From the NCBI GenBank assembly GCA_028554795.2, contig CM068835.1, positions 31,498,311-31,562,310 on the forward strand: a stretch of DNA of 64,000 nt, given 5' to 3'. The position numbers and the translations under genes were made by a program. The stretch comes from Sinohyriopsis cumingii (taxonomy: Eukaryota > Mollusca > Bivalvia > Unionida > Unionidae). This document shows, piece after piece, positions 36,981 through 57,291 of this stretch. The notes below the pieces were generated by a model that worked only from the letters and a program-made list of their open reading frames with translations, was not told where the DNA came from and made no database searches. Numbering within the stretch: the first letter of the stretch is position 1; each line of letters starts with the position of its first letter.

Positions 36981-37330
36981 AGTAGTGAAGTGGGATAGTA
37001 TAGGGTCTATGGGATTTATCATTAAAAACACCCTTGGGAACATATAGGGTCTATGTAAATTTAACATGGAGAAAAATCGTGGGAACATATAGGGTCTATG
37101 GGAATTAACATGGCCAAAAACCCATGGGACTGTATAGGGTCTATGTAAATTTAACATGGCCAAGAAACCCCTGGGACTGTATAGGGTCTATGTAAAATTG
37201 AAACAGGGAGGGTCTCTATTTTTTTGTTAAAAAAAAATAAAATAAAAAAACAAAATAAAAAAGGGGTAGGCAATGGAAAGGCTATCTCTTTTCGAGATAT
37301 ATGGGGGCCCTGAAAAGGGCCTTTGGGTTT
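36981..37330 (+). repeat. Left terminal inverted repeat with five iterons
   Basis: Matches the inverted complement of 56941-57291. Five copies of TGGGAnnnTATAGGGTCTATG begin at about 36991, 37035, 37080, 37125 and 37172 (44-47 bp apart), separated by TTTAACATGG spacers. An A-rich tract and the histone-like hairpin of the first gene follow. Terminal repeats of protein-primed elements hold the replication origin; a role for the iterons is inference. Confidence 0.95.
37281..37321 (-). terminator. Histone-type 3' stem-loop and downstream element, gene 37341-37724
   Basis: Minus strand GGCCCTTTTCAGGGCC (37306-37321) is a 6-bp stem with a 4-base loop matching the histone mRNA consensus GGYYYUUHUNARRRCC. 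CCCAAA precedes it and TCTCGAAAAGAGATAG (37281-37297) follows. It lies about 19 nt after the stop codon. It sits inside the terminal repeat, so the same sequence serves the gene at the other end. Confidence 0.8.
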
Positions 37331-37340
37331 TCTTCTGCTT

Positions 37341-37724
37341 CTAATTTCTTCTTTTCCTCCACCAACTTCTTATTTTATCTCCAACACTCTTTCTCTTCTT
37401 TTTTTTCTCCTCCTCCTCTTCTTTCTTCTCTTCCTCCTCCTCTTCTTTCTTCCTCTTCTCATTTTCCTCTTCTTTTTCAATTTTTTCGTTCCATGTTCTT
37501 ATTCTTATCTTTTCCTCTTCATCCTCCTTCTCCTCCTTTATTTCCTTCATCACACCACTAATCTTGTCCTTTGCTTTTCTTAAATTGTTAATTTCCATCT
37601 TTACACGATGGGGACTATAGGAATAATGGTCTTCAACCAGTCTTATTAGCATCTGTTCCATTATTCCTAAGTTGTCTAAAACGTCTTGCAAGGTTTGTAT
37701 TTTGTCCATTTGGTTTGACGCCAT
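37341..37724 (-). CDS. Charged coiled-coil protein, left-end gene 1
   Basis: A 127-residue protein of unknown function. The N-terminal third is a predicted helix ('IQTLQDVLDNLGIMEQMLIR'). The rest is almost wholly E/K-rich (repeated EEEEEKK runs) and ends in a basic patch with 'WWRKRR'. No enzyme motif is visible. ATG at 37724 follows a TATA-like TATAAGAAC (37771-37779) and the shared upstream module at 37783-37812. The mRNA end is the histone-type hairpin 19 nt after the stop. It looks like a highly expressed structural or nucleic-acid-associated protein, but this is inference. Confidence 0.75.
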   Translation of the reverse strand: MASNQMDKIQTLQDVLDNLGIMEQMLIRLVEDHYSYSPHRVKMEINNLRKAKDKISGVMKEIKEEKEDEEEKIRIRTWNEKIEKEEENEKRKKEEEEEEKKEEEEEKKKKRKSVGDKIRSWWRKRRN

Positions 37725-37782
37725 CTTCTTTTTATTCTTTGCAGAATGGTTTGAACGACGAATACTGTGGGTTCTTATACGA

Positions 37783-37880
37783 AAAGCGCGGACGTGAAGG
37801 AAAACATCCCCCTAAAACATAAAATGGATCTTACCTAGATCATGACCCAACAACGCGCGGACGTGAAGGAAAACATCCCC
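37783..37880 (-). promoter_or_regulatory. Shared promoter module, gene 37341-37724 (two copies)
   Basis: The minus-strand block GGGGATGTTTTCCTTCACGT followed by CCGCGCTTT lies at 37783-37812 and again at 37854-37880. They are separated by a spacer with a GATCTTACCTAGATC-like palindrome. The proximal copy ends 3-4 bases before the TATA-like box. The same block with the same spacing occurs upstream of the next two genes (38563-38592, 39432-39460). Confidence 0.75.
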
Positions 37881-38018
37881 TACTTTCTCATTTCATATAA
37901 TATAACCCTAACTATACTCTCTACATACGCTAAGAATCAATAAATAAATCCAAAATCTACTATTCACACAAACTTACTTCAGCATTTACAAACACAAACT
38001 CACAAACACATACACTTC

Positions 38019-38124
38019 CACTATTCATAAAGAGTTAGTGTTTATATTCACACTACTCTACCTACACATTGGCAAATGGATCGTTATTTCTTTTCTAGAG
38101 TATTGGGTAGCCCTGAAAAGGGCT
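38019..38124 (-). repeat. Duplicated intergenic block, copy 1
   Basis: TAAAGAGTTAGTGTTTATAT through TTGGCAAATGGATCGTTATT to the hairpin is almost identical to 38875-38977. It contains the 3' end signals of the adjacent gene, showing that whole expression cassettes have been duplicated. Confidence 0.9.
38082..38124 (-). terminator. Histone-type 3' stem-loop, gene 38154-38501
   Basis: Minus strand AGCCCTTTTCAGGGCT (38109-38124) has a six-pair stem and UUUC loop. It is followed by ACCCA, which is the usual 3' end of mature histone mRNA, and then CTCTAGAAAAGAAATAACGA (38082-38100). The hairpin starts about 29 nt after the stop codon. Confidence 0.78.
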
Positions 38125-38153
38125 GTTTTGTTTGGAACTTCATGGACACCTGG

Positions 38154-38501
38154 TTAATGGTGGCACCTTCCAGGCCTGGCGCCACATACACATCTTATCC
38201 CCCAGTTACTTTTTACCTTTTGGGGGGAGAGAGCAGAGGCAGGATATGTCGCTTCAGAATCCCAATTTTCGCTCTCTGGGATTCTGAAATTTTTTCTTCT
38301 CTCCTTTTCCTCCTCCTCCTCTTTGTTTCTTCTCTCCTCTTTGTATCTTCTTTCCTCTTCTTCTTCTTTATATCTTCTCTCCTCCTCCTCTCTTATCCTT
38401 CCCTCCTCGACAATGGCTTCCGCGGCCAGTTCATTTAATATGCGCCTGGCATATTCCAGATGCACATAAAGTTCCAACAGTTTCTCCAGTCTCGTGTTCA
38501 T
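38154..38501 (-). CDS. Charged coiled-coil protein, left-end gene 2
   Basis: A 115-residue protein. The N-terminus 'LEKLLELYVHLEYARRIL' matches 'LAKLNEAYVNLHRVRHSL' of the next gene (39007-39369), so the two are paralogs. The middle is an E/R/K-rich repeat ('RRYKEEEEERRYKEERR'). The C-terminus has 'CVCGARPGRCHH'. ATG at 38501 lies about 50 nt below a TATAAATTG box (38552-38560) and the shared promoter block. No function is recognised. Confidence 0.75.
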   Translation of the reverse strand: MNTRLEKLLELYVHLEYARRILNELAAEAIVEEGRIREEEERRYKEEEEERRYKEERRNKEEEEEKERRKNFRIPESENWDSEATYPASALSPQKVKSNWGIRCVCGARPGRCHH

Positions 38502-38562
38502 TTTTGGTGTTGATCAATCAACAAGGGTAGCTGGACTGCCGAACGAGTTTCAATTTATACTG

Positions 38563-38660
38563 AAAGCGCGGACGTGATGGAAAACATCCCCCTAATAACA
38601 TAAAATCGATCTTACCTAGATCATGACCCAAAACAACGCGCGGACCTAAAAGAAACACTC
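38563..38660 (-). promoter_or_regulatory. Shared promoter module, gene 38154-38501
   Basis: The conserved block at 38563-38592 (GCGCGGACGTGATGGAAAAC on the plus strand) has a diverged second copy near 38638-38660. The same GATCTTACCTAGATC spacer lies between them. The gene start is 60 nt away. Confidence 0.7.
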
Positions 38661-38874
38661 ACTCACTTTTTTATGCTACCCATCACTATTATAAAATTTT
38701 TTATGAATCACTTCAATAGACTATTTACATATGCAAAGCAATCCAATCTAACCCCAAATTTACACCTCAAACAGCCCAAAAAACAAACATCATTTTAATC
38801 TACTATCCACACCATCCTACTTTATCACTTACAAACACAAACACAAACACACAAACACATACCCTCACAATATC

Positions 38875-38977
38875 TTAATAAAGAGTTAGTGTTTATTTTC
38901 ACACTACTCTACCTACACACATTGGCAAATGGATCGTTATTTCTTTTCTAGAGTATTGGGTAGCCCTGAAAATGGCT
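38875..38977 (-). repeat. Duplicated intergenic block, copy 2
   Basis: Second copy of 38019-38124, including the 3'-end signals of gene 39007-39369. Confidence 0.9.
38936..38977 (-). terminator. Histone-type 3' stem-loop (imperfect), gene 39007-39369
   Basis: Minus strand AGCCATTTTCAGGGCT (38962-38977) has one mismatched pair in the stem. The ACCCA tail and AGAAAAGAAATAAC downstream block are the same as for the neighbouring gene. The hairpin starts about 29 nt after the stop. Confidence 0.65.
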
Positions 38978-39006
38978 GTTTTTTTGTTTTGCTATGGCAT
39001 TCTTTT

Positions 39007-39133
39007 TTAGTTTCTAAGAATGCGATGTCCTCTGAGGATAGACTTTCTGGCGATAGGTCTGCTTCTTCGGAAAGAGAAGAAGAACTCTTTGGTGTCGATA
39101 CGACAATCGACAAAGCCTCTGTCAGGTTCAGGT

Positions 39134-39165
<32 letters not shown>

Positions 39166-39369
39166 TTGCTGCTGTCTCTGAAGTCTGTACTTCTCTGTCC
39201 ATTCTTCTTTCTCCCTGTTCATTTCTTCTCTGAAGAGCTCTTCTATCAGGTCTTCAGTGATTTTTAACATTCTCACATTCTCTATTTCTTCTGGCTTCGG
39301 TATCAGACTGTGTCTGACCCTATGCAAATTCACGTAGGCTTCGTTGAGCTTAGCTAGTTTGGAGCACAT
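39007..39369 (-). CDS. Polyglutamine coiled-coil protein, left-end gene 3
   Basis: A 120-residue protein counted from the first ATG (39369). Its N-terminal helix is paralogous to gene 38154-38501. The middle is acidic-basic helical ('LIEELFREEMNREKEEW'), followed by about 16 consecutive Gln and a basic C-terminal tail ('RRSRPIARKSILRGHRILRN'). The glutamine run is coded by CAG/CAA repeats (the GCTGTTGCTGCT-type tract at 39135-39176). The promoter block lies at 39432-39460 and the histone-type hairpin below. Function unknown. Confidence 0.72.
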
Positions 39370-39431
39370 CTTCTTAGGAGGATGAGTCGACAATGGATGG
39401 TTAGACTGGGAACAAACCGGTTCTTAAAGTT

Positions 39432-39460
39432 AAAGCGCGGACGTGAAGGAAAACATCCCC
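39432..39460 (-). promoter_or_regulatory. Shared promoter module, gene 39007-39369
   Basis: Single copy of the block GGGGATGTTTTCCTTCACGT + CCGCGCTTT, followed by a weak TATA-like TTTAAGAAC and then ATG 60 nt further on. Confidence 0.7.
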
Positions 39461-39579
39461 CCACACGGTTTTTCGAGCCGCAACGTTCATGAGAGGGATA
39501 GTAAGAAATGAAAGAGCATCAATCCAACATTCTTATAGCTAAACAAACCACAAAAGCATTTTTTCAAAACACAACATTT

Positions 39580-39585
39580 TTTATT
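39580..39585 (-). terminator. AATAAA polyadenylation signal of the capsid cluster
   Basis: AATAAA on the minus strand about 115 nt after the protease stop codon. No histone-like hairpin is present here, in contrast to the end genes. Confidence 0.6.
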
Positions 39586-39698
39586 CAAAAATCACTTAAC
39601 ACTAAACAACAACAACTCTAACATTTTTAAAAATAATTCAACACTATAACATCAAACATTTTTTTCAAATCACAAACATTTTTTTCTCAATGCACAAT

Positions 39699-40259
39699 CT
39701 ACTTTAAACAGGGCTGACAACGTTGTGAATGAAATTGTGATTTCCACTGTTGGAAATCATTAGGCCATTGATGGACACTACGTTTCCTAGCTTGAGACAA
39801 AAGATAAGCATAATGGTCACAAAACCATCGATCTACTTTCACATCGTTTCTAGCAGAAGAACGAGGATCGAAATGAGTCACTAAATGTTCTAAGGAATAG
39901 CCTAGGCTGCGATGATGCAGAAAATACACACAGTACTGTCCACACACCAAGGAATCTGTGCCTTGTAATTTCACATTATTGAATCGGGTGGTTTGAGCAT
40001 TTCTTCTCATAAAGTCGATGATATCGTCTTCCAAAGGGGGCAATCCGTACGAATCGAAATATTCCACACATCCTTCTTGAGGAAAGTAAACGGCTACCCA
40101 GTGGGTTCCTGGGAGATGACTGTCGTCCGTGTTGATCACGTAAGCTTGATGGTCTTTAGGTTTGCGATGAGGGAGTTCATCTTTAGCACAGACGACGGGA
40201 TTCCAAGAAGACGTATACGAACTGTGGTTCAAAAGGTAATAAAGTTCCCAGGTATCCAT
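39699..40259 (-). CDS. Adenain-like cysteine protease (maturation protease)
   Basis: A 186-residue protein of the adenain/Ulp1 (C5/C48) fold, expected to cleave virion precursor proteins. Catalytic residues are visible in order: His53 in GTHWVA, Asp69 in YFDSYG, the oxyanion-hole Gln99 candidate in KLQGT and Cys110 in CGQYCVYF. The length fits the family (about 180-200 residues). It is the last gene of the minus-strand capsid cluster, 19 bp after the gene at 40279-40758, and is followed by an AATAAA. Start ATG at 40259. Polinton and adintovirus proteases have exactly this arrangement; identification is secure. Confidence 0.93.
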   Translation of the reverse strand: MDTWELYYLLNHSSYTSSWNPVVCAKDELPHRKPKDHQAYVINTDDSHLPGTHWVAVYFPQEGCVEYFDSYGLPPLEDDIIDFMRRNAQTTRFNNVKLQGTDSLVCGQYCVYFLHHRSLGYSLEHLVTHFDPRSSARNDVKVDRWFCDHYAYLLSQARKRSVHQWPNDFQQWKSQFHSQRCQPCLK

Positions 40260-40278
40260 TGATTTGTGTTTTTTTTCT

Positions 40279-40758
40279 TCACAGGTAATAATAAGTCGTC
40301 AATTCGATCCTGACTTTTTGCTTGAAAATGTCTGACGAATAAACCGTTATTCGTTCTGTTTCCTCACTCTGATTCAGGAGAGCTTCGATGCGATGGATCT
40401 CTTGTGTGGTTAATGGTGGACAAGAATGTTCACGCAAGTCTTTATACCACTGGTGCAACACGTCTTTGTTCGAGATGAGACTCCAAGCTTCGTCCAGATA
40501 CTCGTCCAATTTTTCTTCTTGACTTAACATCAGGCATTTATCGTGTTGAATTTGACTGGGATGATCGTTTTGACATCCATAGCAATTTTTCTTGATCAAT
40601 TCCGTCATTTTATCGACCAAGTGTTTGGCAAAACAGGAGACTAAATGGGCTTCTTGTTCTGGCCATCTCGACTTCATTATGATCACTTCTTCCACAGTCT
40701 CCTCACATTTCATGTCCAAAGTTTCTCCACTAGGTAAAGAGGGATAACAGTCTTCCAT
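40279..40758 (-). CDS. Conserved small Polinton protein with CxxC...HxxC motif
   Basis: A 159-residue protein between capsid and protease genes. It has a zinc-site-like set Cys59, Cys62, His66, His72 and Cys75 ('CYGCQNDHPSQIQHDKC') followed by helical segments. This motif recurs in many invertebrate Polinton proteins in the same place, but I know of no assigned function. The gene starts 5 bp after the capsid stop codon, so it probably shares a transcript with it. Confidence 0.8.
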   Translation of the reverse strand: MEDCYPSLPSGETLDMKCEETVEEVIIMKSRWPEQEAHLVSCFAKHLVDKMTELIKKNCYGCQNDHPSQIQHDKCLMLSQEEKLDEYLDEAWSLISNKDVLHQWYKDLREHSCPPLTTQEIHRIEALLNQSEETERITVYSSDIFKQKVRIELTTYYYL

Positions 40759-40763
40759 GACTT

Positions 40764-42080
40764 CTAGTAATCTAGAATGACTTCTCTCAAACTGTTGATT
40801 TCTATGGTATTGTCAAATTCTGCATACAGGATGACGTTCACTGTGTGATCTGGAGGTGGATGTGTAAACTGAATTTCCACACGAATCTGGCCTGATTTTA
40901 TAGGGTGGAAATGTCCCTCGTCGCTGCCTTGGTCTGGAGTGAAGTCGAAAGCCCACAAAGCGTAGCCTCCTGCATAATCGTCGTACGTAATGCCGTGACT
41001 GGTGTTGGTTCCTAACTGTCCGGTAGCTTCGTACAGGGACAAGTACGACCTCAAATAATTCCCGTCACCAAAGTTAGGTTCTAAAGGCCGGGTACACAAG
41101 GTCTTGCCGTCGCGACTGACTTCAATCTTGGACACTTTGTAATGATGAAAGTTGAAAGGATTTTCATGGTAGGCTCCGTTGAAGGCTGAATTCTTCACTA
41201 AACCAACAATCAAACGTTTGGGTAACTGTCCTTGGAACAGATGATCTTGGATCATGGATCGATGTCCAGAAGGAATGGTGAACGTTTTCACTTCCACGCG
41301 TCGGATCGGATACTTGGCCGTCGTTCTGCTCAACGTCTGACTGATGTCGTTACCTACTTTAGGCAGCACTTCCACACGTCGCACGTAGAGTCTGGCATCT
41401 TCGATTTTGGTTTTGTAAGTGGAATTTTCTGCAGCCATCAAATGGAAAGCAGCACTACTGCGATTCAGTCTCAAGCGGATATCCACCCCGTTCAGCAAAT
41501 ACTTTTCTTGCAACCACATGTCCAAATGCAAGCGATCCATTAGTTCTAAACTATGACTTAGTGCAATTTTCGCTCGTCGGTCTACAAATCCCTTTGAATG
41601 TGCAGCATTCGCAGCAAGTACAATAGCGTTGAACTTAGTTGCTGGGTCAGGTTTCCATACCACGCAAGCATCTAGATGAGTATTCTTGGCGTTTATTCCA
41701 TACGTCAAGAGATTTTCCAGGTACGCTCGATAAGGGTAAGTATCCATGCTGCTGCTGACCAGTTTGTTATTCAAGTACAAGTCCACTTCGTTGAACAAGG
41801 AATGCATGAAATTATTGACGGGAGCTACTGCATCATCATCGGCTAGGTTATCGTTGTTCGCTTCGGTTACTTTGACTTTCAAGTACAGGTAACTGCTATT
41901 TAGATCGATGTAATCTTCGGGTTGTCCTTTGATTTCGAACTCGATGGGAGCAGAATCGGTCAAAGAGGAGATAGGAAGAAATTCCACCCATTGGGATTCT
42001 TGCATCGTCATCATGGTGGGGGGCATGGCAAACAGATCCAGTTCCGTCTTGGAACAAGCACAAGACTCTCGGTGCATCAT
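40764..42080 (-). CDS. Major capsid protein (hexon-like, double jelly-roll)
   Basis: A 438-residue protein homologous to the major capsid protein of adintoviruses and Polintons. Diagnostic pieces are 'QWVEFLPISSLTDSAPIEFE' near the start, 'DYIDLNSSYLYLKVKV' and 'VAPVNNFMHSLFNEVDLYLN' (residues about 60-105). These open the first jelly roll; the second begins in the 'RRVEVKTFTIPSGH' region. The length is typical for the family (430-500). It would form pseudo-hexameric capsomers. The start could be either of two adjacent ATGs (42080 or 42077). It is flanked by the small basic protein and the CxxC protein with gaps of 5-13 bp. Confidence 0.93.
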   Translation of the reverse strand: MMHRESCACSKTELDLFAMPPTMMTMQESQWVEFLPISSLTDSAPIEFEIKGQPEDYIDLNSSYLYLKVKVTEANNDNLADDDAVAPVNNFMHSLFNEVDLYLNNKLVSSSMDTYPYRAYLENLLTYGINAKNTHLDACVVWKPDPATKFNAIVLAANAAHSKGFVDRRAKIALSHSLELMDRLHLDMWLQEKYLLNGVDIRLRLNRSSAAFHLMAAENSTYKTKIEDARLYVRRVEVLPKVGNDISQTLSRTTAKYPIRRVEVKTFTIPSGHRSMIQDHLFQGQLPKRLIVGLVKNSAFNGAYHENPFNFHHYKVSKIEVSRDGKTLCTRPLEPNFGDGNYLRSYLSLYEATGQLGTNTSHGITYDDYAGGYALWAFDFTPDQGSDEGHFHPIKSGQIRVEIQFTHPPPDHTVNVILYAEFDNTIEINSLREVILDY

Positions 42081-42093
42081 TTTTTTCTGTGTT

Positions 42094-42513
42094 TCAATAA
42101 TCGAAAACGTCTAAGTCTCGAACGGTTCTTCTTTTCTTGGCCTTTCTCGCTTGAAGTCTGGTGAAAGGGTGTTTTCTTCTTCGTCGTCTCTTTCTGCCTT
42201 GTCCTTGCTGAATGCTTGACTCGGTAGCGTGCAGGGCATTTATAGGTGTGTCTCGTCGGCCTAAAATGTCTTTGCCTGTTTGCAGCAAGACATTTTTGCC
42301 TGCCCTCATGAAGGCTTCTTTAGGATTTTGTTTGTCGATGATGACATTTTGGAGAAATTCTTTGCCTTGTGTCAGTGCCGCATCTTTCAAGGCGTGCAAT
42401 CCTCGTGTCACCATCGGTTTCAAGACTGGAGCCACCGAACGAAAGGCCGATTTTAACATGTCTCCTAAACCGTGTCCTCGCTGTCGAGGAACCCCTCGGT
42501 ACACTGGATACAT
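42094..42513 (-). CDS. Small basic capsid-associated protein
   Basis: A 139-residue protein. It opens with an amphipathic, glycine-containing segment ('GHGLGDMLKSAFRSVAPVLK') and ends in two strongly basic clusters ('GRKRRRRRKHPF', 'ARKAKKRR'). In Polintons and adintoviruses, a protein of this build next to the capsid gene is compared to adenovirus core or membrane-lytic proteins (pVII/pX or pVI). Function is by analogy. It is 13 bp upstream of the capsid gene. Confidence 0.82.
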   Translation of the reverse strand: MYPVYRGVPRQRGHGLGDMLKSAFRSVAPVLKPMVTRGLHALKDAALTQGKEFLQNVIIDKQNPKEAFMRAGKNVLLQTGKDILGRRDTPINALHATESSIQQGQGRKRRRRRKHPFTRLQARKAKKRRTVRDLDVFDY

Positions 42514-42524
42514 GGCTTACTTAC

Positions 42525-43469: not shown

Positions 43470-43876
43470 AATTCCAGAGTTCTGTGGCTGTCCGAGGGGT
43501 TAGTGGATGTCAGAGGCGTGTCTCCGCCCAAAATGGGGTTTTGGTTGTGGATGTTGGAGTGGTGACTGGCACTGGCACTGGACACAACGTTCCCGTTCGA
43601 GGAGAATTTCAGGGAGGGATTGGGAAGCAGGTAACCGATGCAACTGCTCAATAAAATGGTCCACAATTGTTTGTCTCCTTGTTGCAAACTCAAATTGGCG
43701 ATGGCTGCCCCGATGACACAATACACCACGAAGATTTGGCAGAAAAAGACGATTTGCGTTTTAGGCACACGTTCTCCACACCACACCCACAAGGGTTGTT
43801 TTTGTAAATCTTGCACAGAAGAACTAGGGGAAGAAGGAGTGGTCGACGTAGCTGCGTCTGCTGTGTGAAAGGGCAT
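43466..43876 (-). CDS. Two-pass membrane protein conserved in Polintons
   Basis: A 136-residue protein from the ATG at 43876. A Ser/Thr/Pro-rich N-terminus is followed by 'CGERVPKTQIVFFCQIFVVY', a first membrane helix continuing into 'CVIGAAIANLSL'. A second hydrophobic segment is 'LWTILLSSCIGYLLPNPSLK'. The 'VPKT.IVFF' and 'LLSSC.GYLLPNP' blocks recur in other Polinton proteins beside the penton gene. It may be a virion membrane or entry-related component, but the function is unknown. It lies 5 bp after integrase and ends in an ATGA overlap with the penton gene. Confidence 0.85.
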   Translation of the reverse strand: MPFHTADAATSTTPSSPSSSVQDLQKQPLWVWCGERVPKTQIVFFCQIFVVYCVIGAAIANLSLQQGDKQLWTILLSSCIGYLLPNPSLKFSSNGNVVSSASASHHSNIHNQNPILGGDTPLTSTNPSDSHRTLEL

Positions 43877-43881
43877 GATGG

Positions 43882-47964: not shown

Positions 47965-47977
47965 TTTTCAGAACACG

Positions 47978-47997: not shown

Positions 47998-48291
47998 TCA
48001 AACATGAATACGAAAGACAAAAATACATAAAAGCCAAAGGCTTAAGTACAAGGATAAAAGGCACATGATTACGATGAACGTGGAATAAACACAAGTGTCT
48101 GTACAACAATCACATCTTTTGGGTAATGTTCTAACCAGTTCTATAGTAGGGGGTAAGGTCACACAAGTGTCCTCATGAAAGGGTCTTTCAGGTCTGTCCA
48201 CGACAGTCCTGTCCTGGGTGACGGGTTCTTCTGGCACCGTCACTAACACGGGTTGAAAAGTAACTTTTTTCCTTGAACAACTCTCGTGCAT
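47998..48291 (-). CDS. Small single-pass membrane protein
   Basis: A 97-residue protein from the ATG at 48291. A Pro/Val-rich part ('KVTFQPVLVTVPEEPVTQ') and a Cys cluster ('RCDCCTDTCVYS') are followed by a C-terminal hydrophobic segment ('STFIVIMCLLSLYLSLWLLC'), consistent with tail anchoring. It overlaps the gene at 48188-48511 by about 100 bp in another frame. The AATAAA close to its stop supports it. Function unknown. Confidence 0.6.
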   Translation of the reverse strand: MHESCSRKKVTFQPVLVTVPEEPVTQDRTVVDRPERPFHEDTCVTLPPTIELVRTLPKRCDCCTDTCVYSTFIVIMCLLSLYLSLWLLCIFVFRIHV

Positions 48292-48511
48292 ACTGGGCCA
48301 CTTCTTGGGTCCAAGCCTCAAAATCCCATTCTTTCCAGGCACGGACATCTGTCCAGTGGGGATGTAAGTCACAAGCTACACACACATCGTCATACACGTC
48401 TTGGGTAGCTAAAAGTTGACGAATCTTTTTTTCCTGTTGAGGTCGAGAAGTATCCAGATGAAAACGCAAGGCTTTGAGCAAAAGGAGTTTTTCGTGACCA
48501 TTTAAGGCCAT
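48188..48511 (-). CDS. Small helical protein, unassigned
   Basis: A 107-residue protein from the ATG at 48511, with a Leu-rich helix ('EKLLLLKALRFHL') and 'CVACDLHPHW' and an acidic/aromatic segment ('WKEWDFEAWTQEVAQYAREL'). It overlaps neighbours on both sides (10 bp at its start, about 100 bp at its end). No family is recognised. Confidence 0.55.
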   Translation of the reverse strand: MALNGHEKLLLLKALRFHLDTSRPQQEKKIRQLLATQDVYDDVCVACDLHPHWTDVRAWKEWDFEAWTQEVAQYARELFKEKSYFSTRVSDGARRTRHPGQDCRGQT

Positions 48512-49685: not shown

Positions 49686-50423
49686 TCAATGTCTCGGTCC
49701 CACTAAGGGTAAGTAATGACAATTCGGTGACCATCGAGCATGTTCTACGTAGGCCGAATCTTGCGGTTCCCAGTGGTGAAGTGACACACCGCAACTGAAG
49801 CACTTGACTTTATCTCCTTCGCCCAAGTAGAAAAATCCGGCTCTGGCTAATTCTTCGGGGGTCGGTCCTCCCAGATACTTTGGCCATTTTCCTTTGAACG
49901 ATTGAAGACGATTTTCAAAGTCGCAGCATTCCGACAAACGCACAGGGAACGAATATTCGTCTTTCACAGGTTCGTTTCGATGAGGGTTGGGTGACAGGAA
50001 CAGGAGTTTGCTCAGGGCTGGATGACATCCGTAGGGAGGTAAACGTGAAGGTTGACATTCCCCTTTAAACCCGGTAAAATGTCTAAGAGGACGAGCGGCA
50101 TCGCTTTCGCATCCCTCCGGTTTGACACGCACAGCATCACTTTCCATGACAGGGGCAGTGAGAACAAAGTTCCCATGATGCTTTACGGCATCGCTCAGGT
50201 CACAACGTACAGCATCGGTCCCATCGCAAGGCTCACAATCGCACTCGTCTGCAAACTCCGTTACGCAATTACAATGGTAACCACATGGACAATCGCAGTT
50301 TCCTTCCGGACATTTTCCGTCGCAATGCCTGGGTCTTATCCATCCAATATTAGTCATACTAGAGGAAGATACACCTTTTTTACAATCCCCAAACTGAAAC
50401 GATGTCTTTTTCAAAGTATTCAT
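49686..50423 (-). CDS. BIR-domain protein with Cys-rich N-terminus (IAP-like)
   Basis: A 245-residue protein. The N-terminal 30-75 region is very Cys-rich ('CDGKCPEGNCDCPCGYHCNC'). Residues about 172-240 form a BIR domain with zinc ligands Cys208, Cys211, His228 and Cys235 ('CFSCGVSLHHWEPQDSAYVE', 'HARWSPNC') and the 'ARAGFFYLGEGDKVKC' core. No RING finger is present. BIR proteins bind caspases or IAP antagonists; baculovirus and other viral IAPs block apoptosis. A direct anti-apoptotic role is inference. Its TATA box overlaps the stop codon of the gene at 50483. Confidence 0.88.
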   Translation of the reverse strand: MNTLKKTSFQFGDCKKGVSSSSMTNIGWIRPRHCDGKCPEGNCDCPCGYHCNCVTEFADECDCEPCDGTDAVRCDLSDAVKHHGNFVLTAPVMESDAVRVKPEGCESDAARPLRHFTGFKGECQPSRLPPYGCHPALSKLLFLSPNPHRNEPVKDEYSFPVRLSECCDFENRLQSFKGKWPKYLGGPTPEELARAGFFYLGEGDKVKCFSCGVSLHHWEPQDSAYVEHARWSPNCHYLPLVGPRH

Positions 50424-50479
50424 CTTGTTCGCTCGGTCTTGGTAGTCACAATGAACTATCGATCTTGACCATAGCCCCC

Positions 50480-50487
50480 TTTTTATA
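50480..50487 (-). promoter_or_regulatory. TATA box overlapping a stop codon
   Basis: Minus strand GTATAAAAAGGGG contains the TAA stop (50483-50485) of the upstream BIR gene. The next ATG is 57 nt away. Confidence 0.7.
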
Positions 50488-50941
50488 CTAGTCGCAATGC
50501 AGTCTCCAGCTTGTACATCTTTCCTTTTTTACGTTTTTTATGTCTTGTTTCGGAAGGTACCGTCTCTAAGGTACCGTCAACATTGTACCGTAGTGTAATG
50601 GGTGGAAAGGCCATAGAAAGGTAAGGGCAGTGCGGAGACCATCGAGTATGTTCCAGAATAGCTGAATCTTTATAGATACATAGATCCATTCGTAACTTCA
50701 GTCCGCAAGCAAAACACTGTACCTCGTATCCCAATCCTGACTCAGGTCCCAAGTAGACAAATCCTGTTCTAGCTAAAACATGCGAAGAAGGTAATCCTTC
50801 CCTATCCGTAGGCCATTTCTGAAACGTGTCCAATCGACGGGCACAATCACAATAGTCAGGTAAGAAGACTGGAAAATGGTAGGGTTTGAACTTGGAGTTC
50901 TCATCGGGTTTCTCACTCGATTCTTGCTGTGGCGAAGTCAT
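50483..50941 (-). CDS. BIR-domain protein, single domain (IAP-like)
   Basis: A 152-residue protein with one BIR domain at residues about 35-110: 'RRLDTFQKWPTDREG', 'LARTGFVYLG', and zinc ligands Cys76, Cys79, His98, Cys105 ('CFACGLKLRMDLCIYKDSAI', then 'HTRWSPHC'). The C-terminal tail is basic. It differs from the neighbouring BIR gene outside the domain, so the pair is an old duplication or two acquisitions. ATG at 50941; the TATA box GGTATAAAAC (50979-50988) lies inside the 3' end of the polymerase gene. Confidence 0.9.
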   Translation of the reverse strand: MTSPQQESSEKPDENSKFKPYHFPVFLPDYCDCARRLDTFQKWPTDREGLPSSHVLARTGFVYLGPESGLGYEVQCFACGLKLRMDLCIYKDSAILEHTRWSPHCPYLSMAFPPITLRYNVDGTLETVPSETRHKKRKKGKMYKLETALRLV

Positions 50942-50965
50942 CTTTCTGGTGGGGTAACTATCCTC

Positions 50966-53785
50966 TTACAACCAATGTTTTATACCAACGTGTCCATACG
51001 GTAAGGTGAAATGATTGGGAAGTCGAACTCGCTTCTGGTACACGATTTGATAGACTTTTTCCAAGGGTCGACTGACGATGTGGTGAGTGGGTAAACGTAC
51101 AATCTTGTTCGGTTGATAGGTGGTCACTTTAAAGTTTCCATCCTCTCCCGATTGCAAGGCTTCTTTCAATACCCCAAAGTTGACCACTCGACTGGTACGA
51201 TAATTCAGAGTCAGTCCTTTCACTTTGTACGTCGTGTGCACTTCTCCTTGTTTGTCCCGGTATTCGTAGCCGTAATTTTTGGGACCGCCACTGACGAAAC
51301 TTAGAATCTTGTCGTCGGGATGCTCGTCTGTCCAGGCTCCTAAACGGTCTCCTTCGATGTCAGGGTGATGTTGAATCGGGTGATGGATGTAAATGCAACT
51401 GTCCGTGTCAAAGTACAGGACGCGTTCTTCTAACAGTTCTAAAGCTTCGTACAATTTTAAGCGAGCATGAGCTGTCATGTAAGCCGCAATGATGACATTT
51501 CCAAAAGGGTCGTCTTGTACAAAGTCCAGATCTTCTTCGTAATTGACCAAGATCAAATTCTCTCGAACGACGTCCACGTGTTTCATGTATTTGGTTTTGT
51601 CGTGAATCATCTGGAAGTAGCGGGAAGGTTCTGTCAAATATTCCGTCTTGGGTAAACACGGTCGTTGTGCCATTTTACCCCACAAGCAATTTAACATCAC
51701 TTTGGCAAACGATCGCCTGCCTTCGTTTTTCTCGATGTGGTCTAAAGTGATGCCTTCTTGTTCGTAGTATTTCTCTTTGAATTGTATTTGGTCTTCGGGA
51801 GTGTGACACCAGGAAGGATAGCCGCTGGCTTCTTGCTTCAGTTTCAAAAAGGCATCCACGTAGTCGGCGAAAATGCCTTTCTGACTGGGGTCACCCTTGT
51901 GGTATTGTTGTGTCTTGGGAAAGTGACAAATTTCGTACACTTCTAACAGTTGGTATCCCATGTCCAAAGCTTTGAACAATTCTACGCTGACCCAGGTTCC
52001 CGTCAAGGCCCGTTCTTCCTGGCTGTGCTGACAAGCTTGGTCTTGGTTGCACGTTTCGGCACAAGTACGGCACAAGGGAAACATCAGTTTGCCTTGACAA
52101 TGGTGAGGTAAGACGGGATGGTATAGGTTCGTGGGAGGCAAAACTTTACACTTGATCAAGCCTTCGTATTGTCGAATGTTTTTCAGGTCGATGTGTTCCG
52201 TCAGCAATTGCGGGTGCCCTACAGGAAAGCGACAATATTTGCACACGTAGGGATACAGCGAACACACGTCCAAGTATTTGATTTCTTCTCCTTTCTCTTC
52301 GTCGGCTTGGTACAGCAAACAGGTGGCATTGGTCCTTCCTCCGTACAAACTATCCCTCGGGTTCAGGGGGTCCATCAGCTTGTAACTTTCCACGGCACGT
52401 TTAAACTCGGGATCGATTTTCATACGGTGATCGTATTCGTGTTCCCACATTTCCACCACTTGGTATCCTTGCTGTTCTAACTTTAGGTGCCGCTGACAAG
52501 TGTCCTGGTACAAGTCTTCCATGGTTCGTTGCAAAAACTGATTTTTAGTGCCACGGTCAGGGTAACAGACGGGACATCCGTGAAATAAGCAACCGTTAAA
52601 CTCGTACACGATCTTGGGGTTTTCTAAGTCCCAGCCATCGACCGAATACGTTCCGATGGTCTTTTCACCCCCTCCGTTGCGGGCATGCTGAATCCATTTG
52701 TCTTCCTTGTCGCACAAGTAATGTAACCAACGTAGGGCTTTGACCGAGTATTGACGCTTGACATAGTGGGTCGTTTGAGGACTAATGACAGCCACGGTGT
52801 TTTCAGGCATGAATCGTTGGCGGTACACTAAGGAACACGCTTTGGCAATGGTGCAAGCTTCTTTCAAAGGATCGACCCCTCCGTGTTCCATGAACAGTTC
52901 TCGAAATTTTCCACAGCAACGCCGTAAAATGTCCACGTCGGAACGACAATACTTTAACATTTCTTCCTGAAAGTCGAAAGGGTCCGAGGCGTGAATCTGG
53001 TACCAAGCGTAGAAAGCTTCTCGTTGTTCGGTACGCATGTTGTCGGGGTCGTAATAGTGAGCCTCAGGTAAATGGGGTAGAACGGCGTGTTGATTGGCTT
53101 CCGTATTGAAAAAGTGTGGAAAGTACCCTTTAGCCATTTCTGTCATTCCAAACGTTTTAGGCATTCGACTCAAAGGCATGGCCAAGTAACTCATCGAATC
53201 TTTAAACTGCACTTGTCCCACTTGCATGAAAATGATTTTGGCTCCGTTCAAAGTCACTTTAGGACGTTCGGTGCCTTGTTCCGTATAGTATCTCAAAAGA
53301 AACTGTCCATCGTATCCGGAGAAATTGTGAGCCATCACCGTGGCATGACGATGACAATCTCCGTAACGTTCGATGTCCTCTTGGCTCCACGTCTTGTCGA
53401 TGGGGTCTAAGACCCATTGGGCAAAATCGGCTAGCGTGTTAGGTCCCCGAAAGATTTTTTCACGTCCTCCGGGAATCTTGCTGCAGTGAGGGCAATGACT
53501 GAAGATAGGTTCTTGAATGCACTTCTCGCACGCTCGATGAGCCACGCAAAAATTAGGAATGTGAATGCCGGTCTCTTGCATGCATTCGAAATCGAAAAAG
53601 ATGAAATTGCCTTTCTTCTTGTGACCGTCCTCTTTCTCTGGTGGGGGTTGGTATTTTTGCACGTAGCATTGGTGTTCCAAGTCCACGATGTGGTGACAAA
53701 TGTGACATTTTTTCTTTCCTCGACATACGTGTGCCTTGGCATTGTTGGTAAGTATGCCTTGTCCACAGGTAGGGCACAATCTCAA
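50966..53785 (-). CDS. DNA polymerase B, protein-primed type
   Basis: A 939-codon open frame encoding exonuclease and polymerase domains; it replicates the element. Exonuclease motifs are I FFDFEC (Asp65, Glu67), II HNFSGYDGQF (152-162) and III YCRSDVDIL (279-287). The protein-primed insertion region carries 'YEFNGCLFHGCPVCY' (about 394-408). Polymerase motifs are A YLDVCSLYP (504-512), B KVMLNCLWGK (695-704) and C YFDTDS (791-796). Two Cys/His clusters precede motif I. All catalytic residues are present. The 5' limit given is that of the open frame and is uncertain. The TATA box of the next gene lies in its last codons. Confidence 0.93.
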   Translation of the reverse strand: MRLCPTCGQGILTNNAKAHVCRGKKKCHICHHIVDLEHQCYVQKYQPPPEKEDGHKKKGNFIFFDFECMQETGIHIPNFCVAHRACEKCIQEPIFSHCPHCSKIPGGREKIFRGPNTLADFAQWVLDPIDKTWSQEDIERYGDCHRHATVMAHNFSGYDGQFLLRYYTEQGTERPKVTLNGAKIIFMQVGQVQFKDSMSYLAMPLSRMPKTFGMTEMAKGYFPHFFNTEANQHAVLPHLPEAHYYDPDNMRTEQREAFYAWYQIHASDPFDFQEEMLKYCRSDVDILRRCCGKFRELFMEHGGVDPLKEACTIAKACSLVYRQRFMPENTVAVISPQTTHYVKRQYSVKALRWLHYLCDKEDKWIQHARNGGGEKTIGTYSVDGWDLENPKIVYEFNGCLFHGCPVCYPDRGTKNQFLQRTMEDLYQDTCQRHLKLEQQGYQVVEMWEHEYDHRMKIDPEFKRAVESYKLMDPLNPRDSLYGGRTNATCLLYQADEEKGEEIKYLDVCSLYPYVCKYCRFPVGHPQLLTEHIDLKNIRQYEGLIKCKVLPPTNLYHPVLPHHCQGKLMFPLCRTCAETCNQDQACQHSQEERALTGTWVSVELFKALDMGYQLLEVYEICHFPKTQQYHKGDPSQKGIFADYVDAFLKLKQEASGYPSWCHTPEDQIQFKEKYYEQEGITLDHIEKNEGRRSFAKVMLNCLWGKMAQRPCLPKTEYLTEPSRYFQMIHDKTKYMKHVDVVRENLILVNYEEDLDFVQDDPFGNVIIAAYMTAHARLKLYEALELLEERVLYFDTDSCIYIHHPIQHHPDIEGDRLGAWTDEHPDDKILSFVSGGPKNYGYEYRDKQGEVHTTYKVKGLTLNYRTSRVVNFGVLKEALQSGEDGNFKVTTYQPNKIVRLPTHHIVSRPLEKVYQIVYQKRVRLPNHFTLPYGHVGIKHWL

Positions 53786-53803
53786 GAGCTGACAAGCACA
53801 TTT

Positions 53804-55006
53804 CTACTGTGAACCTTGCGTCTTCAGATGTTGCTGGTAACAGGTAGGGCTGACAAACGTACGCAGACAAGTCGAACAAGGCACTGGTTCTTCGCTCAGA
53901 CAGGGTGAAGAGGCCAAACATCCTGGGCATTTCGATCCACAATGCTTGTGTTGCTCTCGATTGTTATAACCATAATCACATTTCTCACAATAATAACCGT
54001 ATCCTAGGAATCCAGTGATACTGGTAATGGTATCGAAATGTTCATCGTGATGATAAACGTGAATGTATTTTCCGTCCTTAAAGTCTTGCCCTCGAAACAA
54101 CAAAGACCCGCGCACTTCTTGAGGGTGCACTTTCAAGATGTATCGTGGAGCTAGGGCATCTTGCAATTTTTGCATCTCAGGAATGCCACAGGGTGTGTCT
54201 TTGGACAGGCCAGCTTGTCGTAACAGGAGTTCTGCTTCACTTCGTTGTTTGGCTCGGTCCGATTGTCGAATGTTCTCCCAGTCTCTTTTCCATTCTACCG
54301 TGTCGTTCTTGTTGGCATAGGTTCGTCCCACCACGATGGCACGGGCTAAACACATCTGGTCATGAGGATTGTGAATTCGGACAAGGCTACGCTTAATGCT
54401 GCGAAGGTCGTTCACCAATAACATCTTTTTGCGTCCGGTCCCTTGAGGAGGAGAGACGTGGGTCATGTCCAATGTGGCTATTCCATCGGTGATGTCAAAC
54501 TGGTCATTAGATTGTTGTACGTGTTGAATCTTGTCCATGACTTTGGAAGCAGTCAATTCTGCAGGGGTGCTAAACTCGATCCAAACAGGGGATTTCAAAC
54601 CGTCGTGTTGTATGGAAAGTCTCAAGCGATCGTCTTCTTTGGGTTGACATTGTCGCTTGAGTGCAGTGAGCAAAGAATCCCACACCCCAGTGATGAACAC
54701 TTCTGCTTTCTCTAACGGCACTTCAGCCTTAAAATCTTTAAACTTCACTGTGTATTTGTAAGCCGTAGTTCTAAATTTTCTAGAGGAGCGCTTTTCCGTC
54801 TCTCGAATGGAATAGTACTTTTCAGGGTTGACTAAGGGTGGTGAACTTGGTTTAGAGGTTTCAAATTCTGGTTCACTCATGTCCTCTTCAAAATCACTGG
54901 CATGAATTTGTGCCAAGATTTCAGCCCTGGTTCGAGGCGATAGATCACGTTTCTGCCTCTTACTTTCTTCTTCTTCTTTCTTCTCGAATGAATGGGATCG
55001 TTTCAT
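53804..55006 (-). CDS. Zinc-finger-rich polymerase-associated region
   Basis: A 400-residue open frame. The start is charged and probably nuclear-targeted ('KKEEEESKRQKR'). A central folded part ('YKYTVKFKDFKAEVPLEKAE', 'LLVNDLRSIKRSLVRIHNP') is followed by C-terminal Cys/His clusters ('YCEKCDYGYNNREQHKHCG', 'KCPGCLASSPC', 'CSTCLRTF'). Such a region accompanies the polymerase in Polintons and adintoviruses. ATG at 55006 follows a TATA box (55055-55060) in a divergent promoter shared with the zinc-knuckle gene. Confidence 0.8.
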   Translation of the reverse strand: MKRSHSFEKKEEEESKRQKRDLSPRTRAEILAQIHASDFEEDMSEPEFETSKPSSPPLVNPEKYYSIRETEKRSSRKFRTTAYKYTVKFKDFKAEVPLEKAEVFITGVWDSLLTALKRQCQPKEDDRLRLSIQHDGLKSPVWIEFSTPAELTASKVMDKIQHVQQSNDQFDITDGIATLDMTHVSPPQGTGRKKMLLVNDLRSIKRSLVRIHNPHDQMCLARAIVVGRTYANKNDTVEWKRDWENIRQSDRAKQRSEAELLLRQAGLSKDTPCGIPEMQKLQDALAPRYILKVHPQEVRGSLLFRGQDFKDGKYIHVYHHDEHFDTITSITGFLGYGYYCEKCDYGYNNREQHKHCGSKCPGCLASSPCLSEEPVPCSTCLRTFVSPTCYQQHLKTQGSQ

Positions 55007-55054
55007 CTTGAAAGCAAAAAGTCAAATGACTCAAGTTCAAACACCATGAGCTAC

Positions 55055-55087
55055 TTTATAGTCATAACAGACCAGCGTATATAAAAG
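55055..55087. promoter_or_regulatory. Divergent promoter with two TATA boxes
   Basis: Minus-strand ACTATAAAGTAGC (TATAAA at 55055-55060) serves the gene starting at 55006. Plus-strand GTATATAAAAGGG (55078-55087) serves the gene starting at 55141. The boxes are about 20 bp apart, back to back. Confidence 0.8.
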
Positions 55088-55140
55088 GGTGTGTGTCTTG
55101 TCCTTTCACTATTCATTTCACTCTCAAGCCGAGCACAACG

Positions 55141-55611
55141 ATGGAAGAGACTAACCAGATGGAACGTTTCGTCAGAGCTTTGCGAGGGGTCATTAGAAAA
55201 TTCTCTTCAGACCAGCCTACGGACTACTCTCCTTCCTTTAGAGATAAAAGTCAAGATACTTGCTATATCTGTCAGAAGAAAGGGCATTGGTCTTCAGAGT
55301 GTCCAGACCGTCAAAAAAGAACAAAAACAGGGACTAAAAAAGACAAAAGTCAAGATACCTGTTATTATTGTCAAGAAAAAGGACATTGGTCTCCAGATTG
55401 CCCAAAAAAGAAACAAGAGGAGTCAGAAGAAAAGAAGGATTCTTCAGAAGAAGAGAGGGATTCTTCGGAAGAAGAGAGGGATTCTTCAGAGGAAGAAAGA
55501 AGACAGGTGAAGAAAAAGAAACAGGAGAAGAAAAGAAGAAGGGAAGAAAGTGAGGAGGAAGAAGAGAAAAAGAGTGTGACGGTGAAGAAATTCAAAAAAC
55601 AGAGAGACTAA
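55141..55611 (+). CDS. Double CCHC zinc-knuckle protein with acidic repeats
   Basis: A 156-residue protein from the ATG at 55141, about 54 nt below a TATA box. It has two zinc knuckles of CX2CX4HX4C form ('CYICQKKGHWSSEC' and 'CYYCQEKGHWSPDC'), as in retroviral nucleocapsid and CNBP-like proteins, so it should bind single-stranded nucleic acid. An 8-residue acidic repeat (DSSEEERD) in three tandem copies and a Lys-rich tail follow. It is one of only two plus-strand genes. An AATAAA at 55698-55703 ends it; there is no histone-like hairpin. Confidence 0.85.
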   Translation: MEETNQMERFVRALRGVIRKFSSDQPTDYSPSFRDKSQDTCYICQKKGHWSSECPDRQKRTKTGTKKDKSQDTCYYCQEKGHWSPDCPKKKQEESEEKKDSSEEERDSSEEERDSSEEERRQVKKKKQEKKRRREESEEEEEKKSVTVKKFKKQRD

Positions 55612-55697
55612 ACAAGGAGACAGAAGAAGTCAATGAACTTTCAATCAAAAGTGTTGTGTTGTGAATTGTGAATTGTATTGTAACAATGGATAAAAGA

Positions 55698-55703
55698 ATA
55701 AAT
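55698..55703 (+). terminator. AATAAA polyadenylation signal of the zinc-knuckle gene
   Basis: AATAAA 87 nt after the stop codon at 55611. Confidence 0.6.
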
Positions 55704-55835
55704 GAATGATATAAGGTAAGTGTCTTTGAGTTTTGATTTTAAAATAAGAAGCTACACTCACGCACTCATACAAAGACACGTACTATAGGGGTAAAATGGG
55801 TGGGGTTTTTTTTGAGTTATTGGCAAATTGAAATT

Positions 55836-55876
55836 GTATTTCTTTTCGAGATATGTGGGTGGCCCTGAAAAGGGCC
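55836..55876 (-). terminator. Histone-type 3' stem-loop, gene 55903-56472
   Basis: Minus strand GGCCCTTTTCAGGGCC (55861-55876) begins 26 nt after the stop codon. It is followed by ACCCA (as in mature histone mRNAs) and TCTCGAAAAGAAATACAA. The block TTGGCAAAT further on matches the left-end genes. Confidence 0.82.
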
Positions 55877-55902
55877 TTTTTCTTTATGGTGTAGGAGTGA
55901 GT

Positions 55903-56472
55903 TTAAGCAATCAACTTTAACTGCCTTATGCCTTTGCCACGGCCAAGGCCTACTTCTGAACTGCGTAATGTTGATGATGATTGGGTTGAAATCACTAAGG
56001 GTGGTACGGTAGGCTTAGTCACAGAGTTGACGTGTTTAGCTCGGGAAGGTCGTATTCTCTTCGGTCGTGATAAAGAAGTCTGATACATTTGTTTCAGACT
56101 TCTTAACTCCGCTAAAATGTCCAACAGTACCGTGACCGTTTGATTTTCACCCTCTTGTTTCTTTGCTGCTACTTCTTCTTGCTGTTGGTGTTTTTTTCTT
56201 ACCTCTTCTTCTTCTTGCTGTTGCTGTAGGAGAAAAGCTTGTTCCGCTTCCTTTTGTCGTTGTATAAATTTCTCCAATTCTTCTTTCTGTCTTTGTCTAA
56301 AATTCTCCACTTGCGGTAATGAAGAAGGTAACGCAGGTTCCGGAACAAATTCTTGCGAAGAGAGAAAATCCACAAAATCCCAATTCACCTCTTCTGAAAG
56401 TAAGTCCGGGTTCCCTTGGGCAGTCTCCCCTGCTGGTGCACCCCAATGGATCGTTTTCTGAGTTTCCGTCAT
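55903..56472 (-). CDS. Gln/Glu-rich coiled-coil protein, right-end gene
   Basis: A 189-residue protein with an acidic N-terminus ('EEVNWDFVDFLSSQEF'), a long coiled coil ('FRQRQKEELEKFIQRQKEAE' onward, with QQQQEEEE) at residues about 55-110, a helix 'VLLDILAELRSLKQMY' and a basic C-terminal region ('RPKRIRPSRAKH'). No family is recognised. It is transcribed away from 56692-56925 from a shared promoter with CRE and CCAAT motifs, and ends in a perfect histone-type hairpin. Confidence 0.78.
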   Translation of the reverse strand: MTETQKTIHWGAPAGETAQGNPDLLSEEVNWDFVDFLSSQEFVPEPALPSSLPQVENFRQRQKEELEKFIQRQKEAEQAFLLQQQQEEEEVRKKHQQQEEVAAKKQEGENQTVTVLLDILAELRSLKQMYQTSLSRPKRIRPSRAKHVNSVTKPTVPPLVISTQSSSTLRSSEVGLGRGKGIRQLKLIA

Positions 56473-56514
56473 GTTGAATCACTGTCGCATAGATTGACTG
56501 CACACAAGCGCTAG

Positions 56515-56646
56515 CAAATCTATATTGACTACGTGACGTCACAGACTGCTCTCTTCGGATTGGATGCGGCTGGCTGAATTTTGTAACGCGTGTTCGGATT
56601 GGTGAATGAACTCAATCCGTTTCAATCCTACCTCTGCCTATAAATA
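56515..56646. promoter_or_regulatory. Divergent promoter with CRE, two inverted CCAAT and TATA
   Basis: The palindromic TGACGTCA (56534-56541) is a perfect CRE/ATF site. TTCGGATTGG occurs twice (ATTGG at 56559-56563 and 56598-56602), giving two CCAAT boxes on the minus strand. TATAAATA (56639-56646) serves the plus-strand gene. AATATAGAT near 56515 is a weak candidate TATA for the minus-strand gene. Binding is not shown. Confidence 0.7.
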
Positions 56647-56691
56647 AGCGCCGTTCACTGCATTGATTCACCTGTTTCTCGGAGCCTCAAG

Positions 56692-56925
56692 ATGTGGACC
56701 GACGTTCAATCTTCAACCCTTGTGTCAACAATGATGTTCAGGACGGACATGCTCATGTATGTCCGGTCCAAGTGGACTGTTGTTGATAGGACAGATACAA
56801 GTCTATGGATGAGGAGAGTTTATATAGAAAGACAAGGATGTCTCAAGAGGGTACTTGTGTATGGACCGGCAGTTAGAAGGAGTTTAAGAAGAAGAAGAAG
56901 ATGTGACAGATGCCATCTATGTTAA
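56692..56925 (+). CDS. Small arginine-rich protein, right-end gene
   Basis: A 77-residue basic protein. The C-terminus 'RRSLRRRRRCDRCHLC' combines an arginine run with a Cys/His cluster. The rest has no family I recognise. Support for a real gene: TATAAATA 46 nt before the ATG, and the histone-type hairpin 24 nt after the stop, the usual histone spacing. It sits at the very edge of the element. An arginine-rich, protamine-like DNA-binding role is possible but only inferred. Confidence 0.65.
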   Translation: MWTDVQSSTLVSTMMFRTDMLMYVRSKWTVVDRTDTSLWMRRVYIERQGCLKRVLVYGPAVRRSLRRRRRCDRCHLC

Positions 56926-56940
56926 TATTAATATTAACAT

Positions 56941-57291
56941 AAACCCAAAGGCCCTTTTCAGGGCCAGCCATATTTCTCGAAAAGAGATAGTCTTTGAACT
57001 GCCTACCCCTTTTTTATTTTGTTTTTTTATTTTATTTTTTTTTTTTAAAAAAATAGAGACCCTCCCTGTTTCAATTTTACATAGACCCTATACAGTCCCA
57101 GGGGTTTCTTGGCCATGTTAAATTTACATAGACCCTATACAGTCCCATGGGTTTTTGGCCATGTTAATTCCCATAGACCCTATATGTTCCCACGATTTTT
57201 CTCCATGTTAAATTTACATAGACCCTATATGTTCCCAAGGGTGTTTTTAATGATAAATCCCATAGACCCTATACTATCCCACTTCACTACT
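56941..57291 (-). repeat. Right terminal inverted repeat with five iterons
   Basis: Inverted complement of 36981-37330, nearly identical over the outer 230 bp and differing mostly in the A/T run and in about ten inner bases. It includes the histone-type hairpin of the gene at 56692-56925. Confidence 0.95.
56950..56990 (+). terminator. Histone-type 3' stem-loop, gene 56692-56925
   Basis: Plus strand CCCAAAGGCCCTTTTCAG plus GGCC: hairpin GGCCCTTTTCAGGGCC at 56950-56965, with CCAAA before it as in histone mRNAs. TCTCGAAAAGAGATAG (56975-56990) follows as a histone-downstream-element candidate. AAAAGAG can pair with CUCUUUU at the 5' end of U7 snRNA. Confidence 0.83.

Follow-up and report, generated by a model that had tools for sequence, protein, structure and literature searches.

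Architecture of the intact Polinton

The 64,000 nt stretch of Sinohyriopsis cumingii contig CM068835.1 (positions 31,498,311 to 31,562,310), hereafter referred to as the window, harbors an intact Polinton, a virus-like mobile element, at the two ends of which five short genes are each followed by a stem-loop resembling those at the 3′ ends of replication-dependent histone mRNAs. The element is bounded by terminal inverted repeats, the outermost 245 nt of which are identical, and both ends are flanked by a GTCCTC target duplication. It encodes a viral-type family B DNA polymerase (PolB; PF03175; e-value: 1.9e-42; 50966-53581), which seems to be read in two open reading frames (ORFs; 55006-53804 and 53581-50966), the first of these without a Pfam match, as well as a retroviral-type rve integrase with a chromodomain (PF00665 and PF00385; 43882-44994), an A32-like packaging ATPase (Pox_A32; 32.6 bits against a Pfam cut-off of 22.8) and a protease with a weak adenain-like Pfam match (Peptidase_C5; 16.3 bits, under the cut-off of 21.3). 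A hexon-type ORF, presumably encoding the major capsid protein, has no Pfam match. Its 120 listed homologues, from a total of 1020, are named only as hypothetical or uncharacterized proteins, and the animal names among these 120 are those of bivalves (Mercenaria, Crassostrea, Ostrea and Saccostrea). Two genes with BIR (inhibitor of apoptosis) domains are also located within the element (49686-50941; Pfam).

The element resembles the Polintons, Mavericks and adintoviruses of animals in encoding PolB, a chromodomain-bearing rve integrase, a packaging ATPase and a protease with a weak likeness to adenain, in having hexon relatives, and in its terminal repeats and 6-bp target duplication. Unlike these elements as described in the literature searched, its terminal genes carry histone-type 3′ ends. 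The element, its repeats and the terminal genes are located as follows:

36981-57291 (36975-57297 with target duplications), no strand: intact Polinton, with 6-bp GTCCTC on both sides, terminal inverted repeats and Polinton proteins
~36981-37331: left terminal inverted repeat, the inner shoulder of which holds the gene 1 3′ module
~56941-57291: right terminal inverted repeat, the inner shoulder of which holds the gene 5 3′ module
37341-37724, minus strand: gene 1, 127 amino acids, K/E-rich, no Pfam match over the curated cut-off
38154-38501, minus strand: gene 2, 115 amino acids, E/R-rich, no Pfam match
39007-39369, minus strand: gene 3, 120 amino acids, Q-repeat, tandem relative of gene 2, no Pfam match
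55903-56472, minus strand: gene 4, 189 amino acids, conserved protein family
56692-56925, plus strand: gene 5, 77 amino acids, basic (isoelectric point 11.0), divergent from gene 4

Each of the five genes is short and consists of a single ORF, and no histone family is found among the Pfam matches of their products at an e-value of 0.01 or below (5/5). It is speculation that the basic gene 5 product could be DNA-binding, in which case a histone-like timing would make sense. Gene 3 contains a CAG/CAA repeat, and another frame, open from this repeat onward, passes the hairpin into the purine element described below, which renders the true end of gene 3 uncertain. A box, GCGCGGACGTGAAGGAAAACATCCCCC (plus strand, with minor changes), lies upstream of genes 1, 2 and 3, with two copies at gene 1 (37770-37812, 37839-37881, 38550-38592 and 39419-39461), and may constitute a promoter module common to the left-end genes. 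The divergent promoter between genes 4 and 5 (56473-56691) contains, as judged by eye, CCAAT-type boxes, TGACGTCA and a TATA box.

Histone-type stem-loops behind the terminal genes

The stem-loops, with their scores against the Histone3 covariance model of Rfam (RF00032), which includes the downstream region and has a cut-off of 34 bits, are as follows:

37306-37321, minus strand: gene 1 stem-loop GGCCCUUUUCAGGGCC; 31.8 bits, e-value 3.1e-5
38109-38124, minus strand: gene 2 stem-loop AGCCCUUUUCAGGGCU, pair 1 A-U rather than G-C, then ACCCA; 31.0 bits, e-value 6.4e-5
38962-38977, minus strand: gene 3 stem-loop AGCCAUUUUCAGGGCU, one stem mismatch, then ACCCA; 20.1 bits, e-value 0.76
55861-55876, minus strand: gene 4 stem-loop GGCCCUUUUCAGGGCC, then ACCCA; 41.2 bits, e-value 9.7e-9
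56950-56965, plus strand: gene 5 stem-loop GGCCCUUUUCAGGGCC, CCAAA before; 35.6 bits, e-value 1.2e-6

The original prediction, made from the sequence without database searches, had placed a 16-nt hairpin in sense orientation shortly after each of these ORFs. All five are present, 19, 29, 29, 26 and 24 nt from the stop codons of genes 1 to 5, respectively, and their sequences are as described there: three correspond to GGCCCTTTTCAGGGCC, one to AGCCCTTTTCAGGGCT, and that of gene 3 has an A.G mismatch at pair 5, so that the stem is full in 4/5. CCAAA directly precedes the hairpins of genes 1 and 5, also as described, while ACCCA, with which mature histone mRNAs usually end, is located behind the hairpins of genes 2, 3 and 4, one more than had been counted. 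The Histone3 model lists all five hairpins, and those of genes 4 and 5 exceed its cut-off. When folded, the stretches of genes 1, 2, 4 and 5 form the hairpin (z against shuffles: -3.3, -1.2, -2.6 and -2.0).

A control against shuffled sequence excludes chance for the element: full-stem hairpins of the strict consensus number three, whereas 500 dinucleotide shuffles of the element average 0.008 and never exceed one, and a looser pattern, devised to include all five hairpins, occurs five times against none in all 500 shuffles. The window outside the element contains neither strict nor looser hairpins. In the viral contig collection, the strict form followed by ACC gave a single match, under the Histone3 cut-off (21.3 bits) and inside a long coding frame of a contig that is taken for a phage. 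A chance origin of the hairpins is thus ruled out by the shuffles, the model scores and the viral contig scan. Among 25 ORFs tabulated from the element's ORF list, other overlapping ORFs being left out, a hairpin is found within 250 nt of the five terminal genes and of none of the remaining 20.

Genes 1 and 5 have their hairpins within the terminal inverted repeats, toward the inner end. With two copies at these shoulders, the module could instead serve as a terminal DNA signal for replication, packaging or integration that stands after stop codons only as a side effect. However, three copies are located outside the repeats, each of the five comes after a stop codon in the orientation of its gene, and the module is absent from the outermost 245 nt of the repeats, where such signals would be expected; we regard this explanation as highly improbable.

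A degenerate stem-loop with two stem mismatches, ACCCA and a GAAA stretch is located outside the element (4439-4454, in 4422-4496). It was not counted, having no clear gene and an e-value of 0.056 against R1, a model built from the five window copies with which e-values are rough, and is either a relic or due to chance.

A purine-rich element downstream of each stem-loop

A second motif, overlooked in the original prediction, accompanies every hairpin:

37283-37293, minus strand: gene 1 purine element GAAAAGAGATA, 12 nt past the stem-loop
38085-38095, minus strand: gene 2 purine element GAAAAGAAATA, 13 nt past the stem-loop
38938-38948, minus strand: gene 3 purine element GAAAAGAAATA, 13 nt past the stem-loop
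55837-55847, minus strand: gene 4 purine element GAAAAGAAATA, 13 nt past the stem-loop
56979-56989, plus strand: gene 5 purine element GAAAAGAGATA, 13 nt past the stem-loop

The histone downstream element lies approximately 10-20 nt after the stem-loop. The purine-rich GAAAAGARATA found here behind 5/5 hairpins at 12-13 nt is a candidate counterpart, in a position equivalent to that at which histone pre-mRNAs pair with U7 small nuclear RNA (snRNA). In mouse histone genes an AAAGAG purine core pairs with U7, the U7 small nuclear ribonucleoprotein (snRNP) binds the downstream element, and CPSF73 cleaves histone pre-mRNA between the stem-loop and this element (PMC7026596, available text), while the canonical histones of Hydractinia have a stem-loop and a purine-rich downstream element and lack a polyadenylation (poly(A)) signal (PMC5011920, available text). 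The occurrence of GAAAAGARATA at all five sites, where the mouse and Hydractinia histones have purine-rich elements of their own, indicates that the modules of the element hold more than a hairpin. The purine element was also considered as the mere arm of a second hairpin (TATCTC/GAGATA; genes 1 and 5). This was rejected as not general, since genes 2, 3 and 4 retain the purine run although the pairing is lost there.

The complete module therefore consists of an A-rich lead, a stem-loop with a 6-bp stem and UUUC loop, an ACCCA cleavage site in 3/5 copies, and the purine-rich downstream element. It resembles the 3′ ends of metazoan replication-dependent histone mRNAs (RF00032; SLBP and U7 snRNP) in stem-loop sequence and fold, in the short distance to the stop codon, in ACCCA, in the purine-rich downstream element and in following short single-ORF genes, and differs in being carried by a mobile viral element whose terminal genes encode no histone by Pfam. 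Mimivirus messages likewise end at hairpins, and Mimiviridae polyadenylate at palindromic hairpins (PMC4402537, available text); the module could accordingly be a viral 3′-end signal of another kind, either a mimivirus-like cleavage and polyadenylation site or a plain terminator, its histone likeness being incidental. We consider this very unlikely, as loop, stem, flanks and purine element agree with a model specific to the histone family, and Pfam scans of 17 of the element's ORFs revealed neither an RNA polymerase nor a poly(A) polymerase. Unlike the host-dependent processing proposed here, the mimivirus ends are, in the same text, polyadenylated by viral enzymes in the cytoplasm.

The closest report is that of PMC12220804 (2025), the available text of which counts, without interpretation, six histone 3′ untranslated region stem-loops in a collection of polinton-like viruses and virophages. 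These belong to the same RNA feature class and broad virus group (n=6), but, in that text, appear as a count alone, with no placement, downstream element or mechanism. It was the only relevant article on histone-type ends in Polintons, adintoviruses or virophages among the listed titles and abstract beginnings of the open-access literature, subscription journals being mostly outside this coverage. The main text of PMC11071296, on animal viruses including adintoviruses, gave no match to 'stem-loop' or 'polyadenylation'.

Distribution of poly(A) signals

Neither AATAAA nor ATTAAA occurs within 250 nt after the stop codons of genes 1, 2, 4 and 5. The same is true of 17/20 of the other tabulated ORFs, those with such a signal being the protease (+114), which is the end of a long minus-strand block, the 47998-48511 pair (+15) and the CCHC gene (+86). 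This distribution would be consistent with the element having two types of 3′ end, without proving it.

Occurrence of the module in related elements

The module is found behind a homologue of gene 4 in another element and, in eroded form, in two neighboring elements. Gene 4 belongs to a family of 20 proteins (e-value at or below 0.001), one of which, P0130, runs 31 residues beyond the usual end. Within this extension a stretch of 12 residues, ISGPPTSLEKRY, chosen after the likeness had been noticed, back-translates onto the hairpin, ACCCA and purine element of gene 4 with 33/36 bases, the left arm of the P0130 hairpin not being fixed by the protein. This is the best match among all positions on both strands of the window, with 31/36 bases reached at genes 2, 3 and 5 alone and 29/36 at gene 1. 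The match of this read-through tail to the module indicates that another element has it in the same place.

Gene 5 has one homologue, P0141, which is 75% identical across all 77 residues. For both P0141 and the gene 4 homologue P0128 the longest contig is 1455 nt and the sources coincide, suggesting that the divergent gene 4/gene 5 pair is kept. Part of the extra N-terminus of P0141 resembles the upstream frame of the window, including the TATA box read as INK, and the TATA box of the gene 4/gene 5 promoter seems to be kept in the relative behind P0141.

The two decayed neighboring elements lie in 208 kb of flanking host DNA, and their eroded modules have the following e-values against R1:

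L006:2631-2697, minus strand: eroded module, left stem arm lost, purine element intact; R1 e-value 7.9e-7
L022:8734-8804, minus strand: eroded module with two stem mismatches, behind a gene 5 relic broken by stops; R1 e-value 1.6e-5

In Rfam, the L022 module scores 21.3 bits, under the cut-off, and that of L006 has no match. Locus L006 also contains a full-stem variant, AGCCTTTTTTAGGGCT (1375-1390, minus strand), 11 nt past a short ORF and with no clear purine element (R1 e-value: 0.27). Further Polinton-like protein matches are found in L007, L008, L009, L012, L013 and L019-L022. A left-type terminal repeat in L017 and a right-type one at window positions 8-140 probably delimit a second, decayed Polinton just left of the window, extending from L017:6213 to window position 140.

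The viral contigs were scanned for relatives of the hexon, ATPase, integrase and gene 4 proteins and none were found. Contigs of bacterial and archaeal genomes yielded four loci with hexon relatives (L001-L004), two of which come from assemblies named for a tubeworm and a Bathymodiolus mussel, and these loci are probably host contamination in bacterial assemblies.

Relatedness and possible upkeep of the five copies

The five hairpins had been taken as separate occurrences, a claim that does not hold: for the most part they go back to a single module, copied inside the element through the terminal repeats and a tandem duplication. Genes 2 and 3 have a 69-nt stretch in common (97% identity) as a result of tandem duplication, and the modules of genes 4 and 5 are 82% alike over 61 nt. 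A histone 3′ end may therefore have been captured once, copied along with the terminal repeats and gene duplications, and be functionless at present, with ordinary poly(A) sites ending the messages. This would account for two of the five copies lying in terminal repeats and two in a tandem duplication, for the mismatch in the gene 3 hairpin and the AATAAA/ATTAAA signals downstream of it, and for the decayed hairpins of the nearby relic elements. It does not sit well with the module behind gene 4 in another element, with genes 1, 2, 4 and 5 being free of AATAAA/ATTAAA within 250 nt, or with the conservation of the motifs in the diverged shoulder of the repeats. There, genes 1 and 5 differ in 0/40 columns of the two motifs against 10/65 of the other columns, columns gapped in gene 5 being left out and the motif borders having been set after looking. 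Motifs unchanged amid changed surroundings point to upkeep, and we consider a functionless relic unlikely. Stem pair 1 is changed on both sides, from G-C to A-U, in genes 2 and 3, and this double change also points to upkeep, though it is a single inherited change.

Several observations weigh against the use of the host histone pathway by these genes. Three of the five hairpins score under the RF00032 cut-off, and the gene 3 stretch (z: -1.1), with its stem mismatch, does not form the hairpin when folded and is followed by AATAAA/ATTAAA at +110 and +208 nt after the stop codon. The copies in the terminal repeats, the tandem duplication and the likeness between genes 4 and 5 imply that the five copies derive perhaps from one ancestral module. 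The covariation, being one inherited change, has a score reached by 41/500 shuffles, and the count of pairs changed on both sides is reached by 349/500. A search of the host genome for U7 (RF00066) gave no match, but is uninformative, since none of 14 control genomes gave a match either. Finally, the more distant Polinton loci L001-L004 have no Histone3 match at an e-value of 1 or below. This is weak evidence, since their ORF lists contain no intact terminal genes and the loci look truncated or degraded; the module may be limited to a single lineage, or L001-L004 may be pieces without the ends.

Other features of the window

A 56-bp tandem repeat (57307-57856) lies near the right border of the insertion. 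A long palindrome (6802-6961), which has Rfam microRNA precursor matches under their cut-offs, is probably an inverted-repeat transposon, while the region 30651-34557 contains remains that resemble a gypsy-type retrotransposon, as judged by eye from translations.

Proposed use of host histone mRNA processing by a Polinton

The signals, their order, spacing and sense placement, and their presence in relatives are observed in the DNA. On this sequence evidence, the five terminal Polinton genes probably use 3′ processing of the replication-dependent histone type by host SLBP and U7. The part of the original prediction that invoked SLBP and histone processing remains the best-supported reading, strengthened by the purine element at 5/5 copies and by the related elements, while its treatment of the five hairpins as separate does not hold. 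Under this proposal, the short terminal genes would be transcribed by host RNA polymerase II, host SLBP would bind the stem-loop, U7 snRNP would pair with the purine element, and CPSF73 would cut between the two. The messages would then end in the stem-loop and not in a poly(A) tail, and would be stable and translated mainly during host DNA replication.

With somewhat less confidence, though still on balance, we suggest that the histone mRNA pathway of the host was taken over by an animal Polinton lineage. The terminal genes of the element, which are probably early and include one for a basic protein of 77 amino acids, would be expressed from messages without tails. As these would be stable only during the copying of host DNA, the element would read S phase via RNA processing, whereas the long structural block would have ordinary poly(A) ends. 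A signal that animals otherwise use on histone messages is here located on a virus-like mobile element. The shortness and specificity of the module allow a computational test of how widely it occurs in Polintons. If the proposal is true, poly(A)-selected RNA sequencing would miss part of the expression of such elements, in which the 3′ end would serve to couple the timing of gene expression to S phase.

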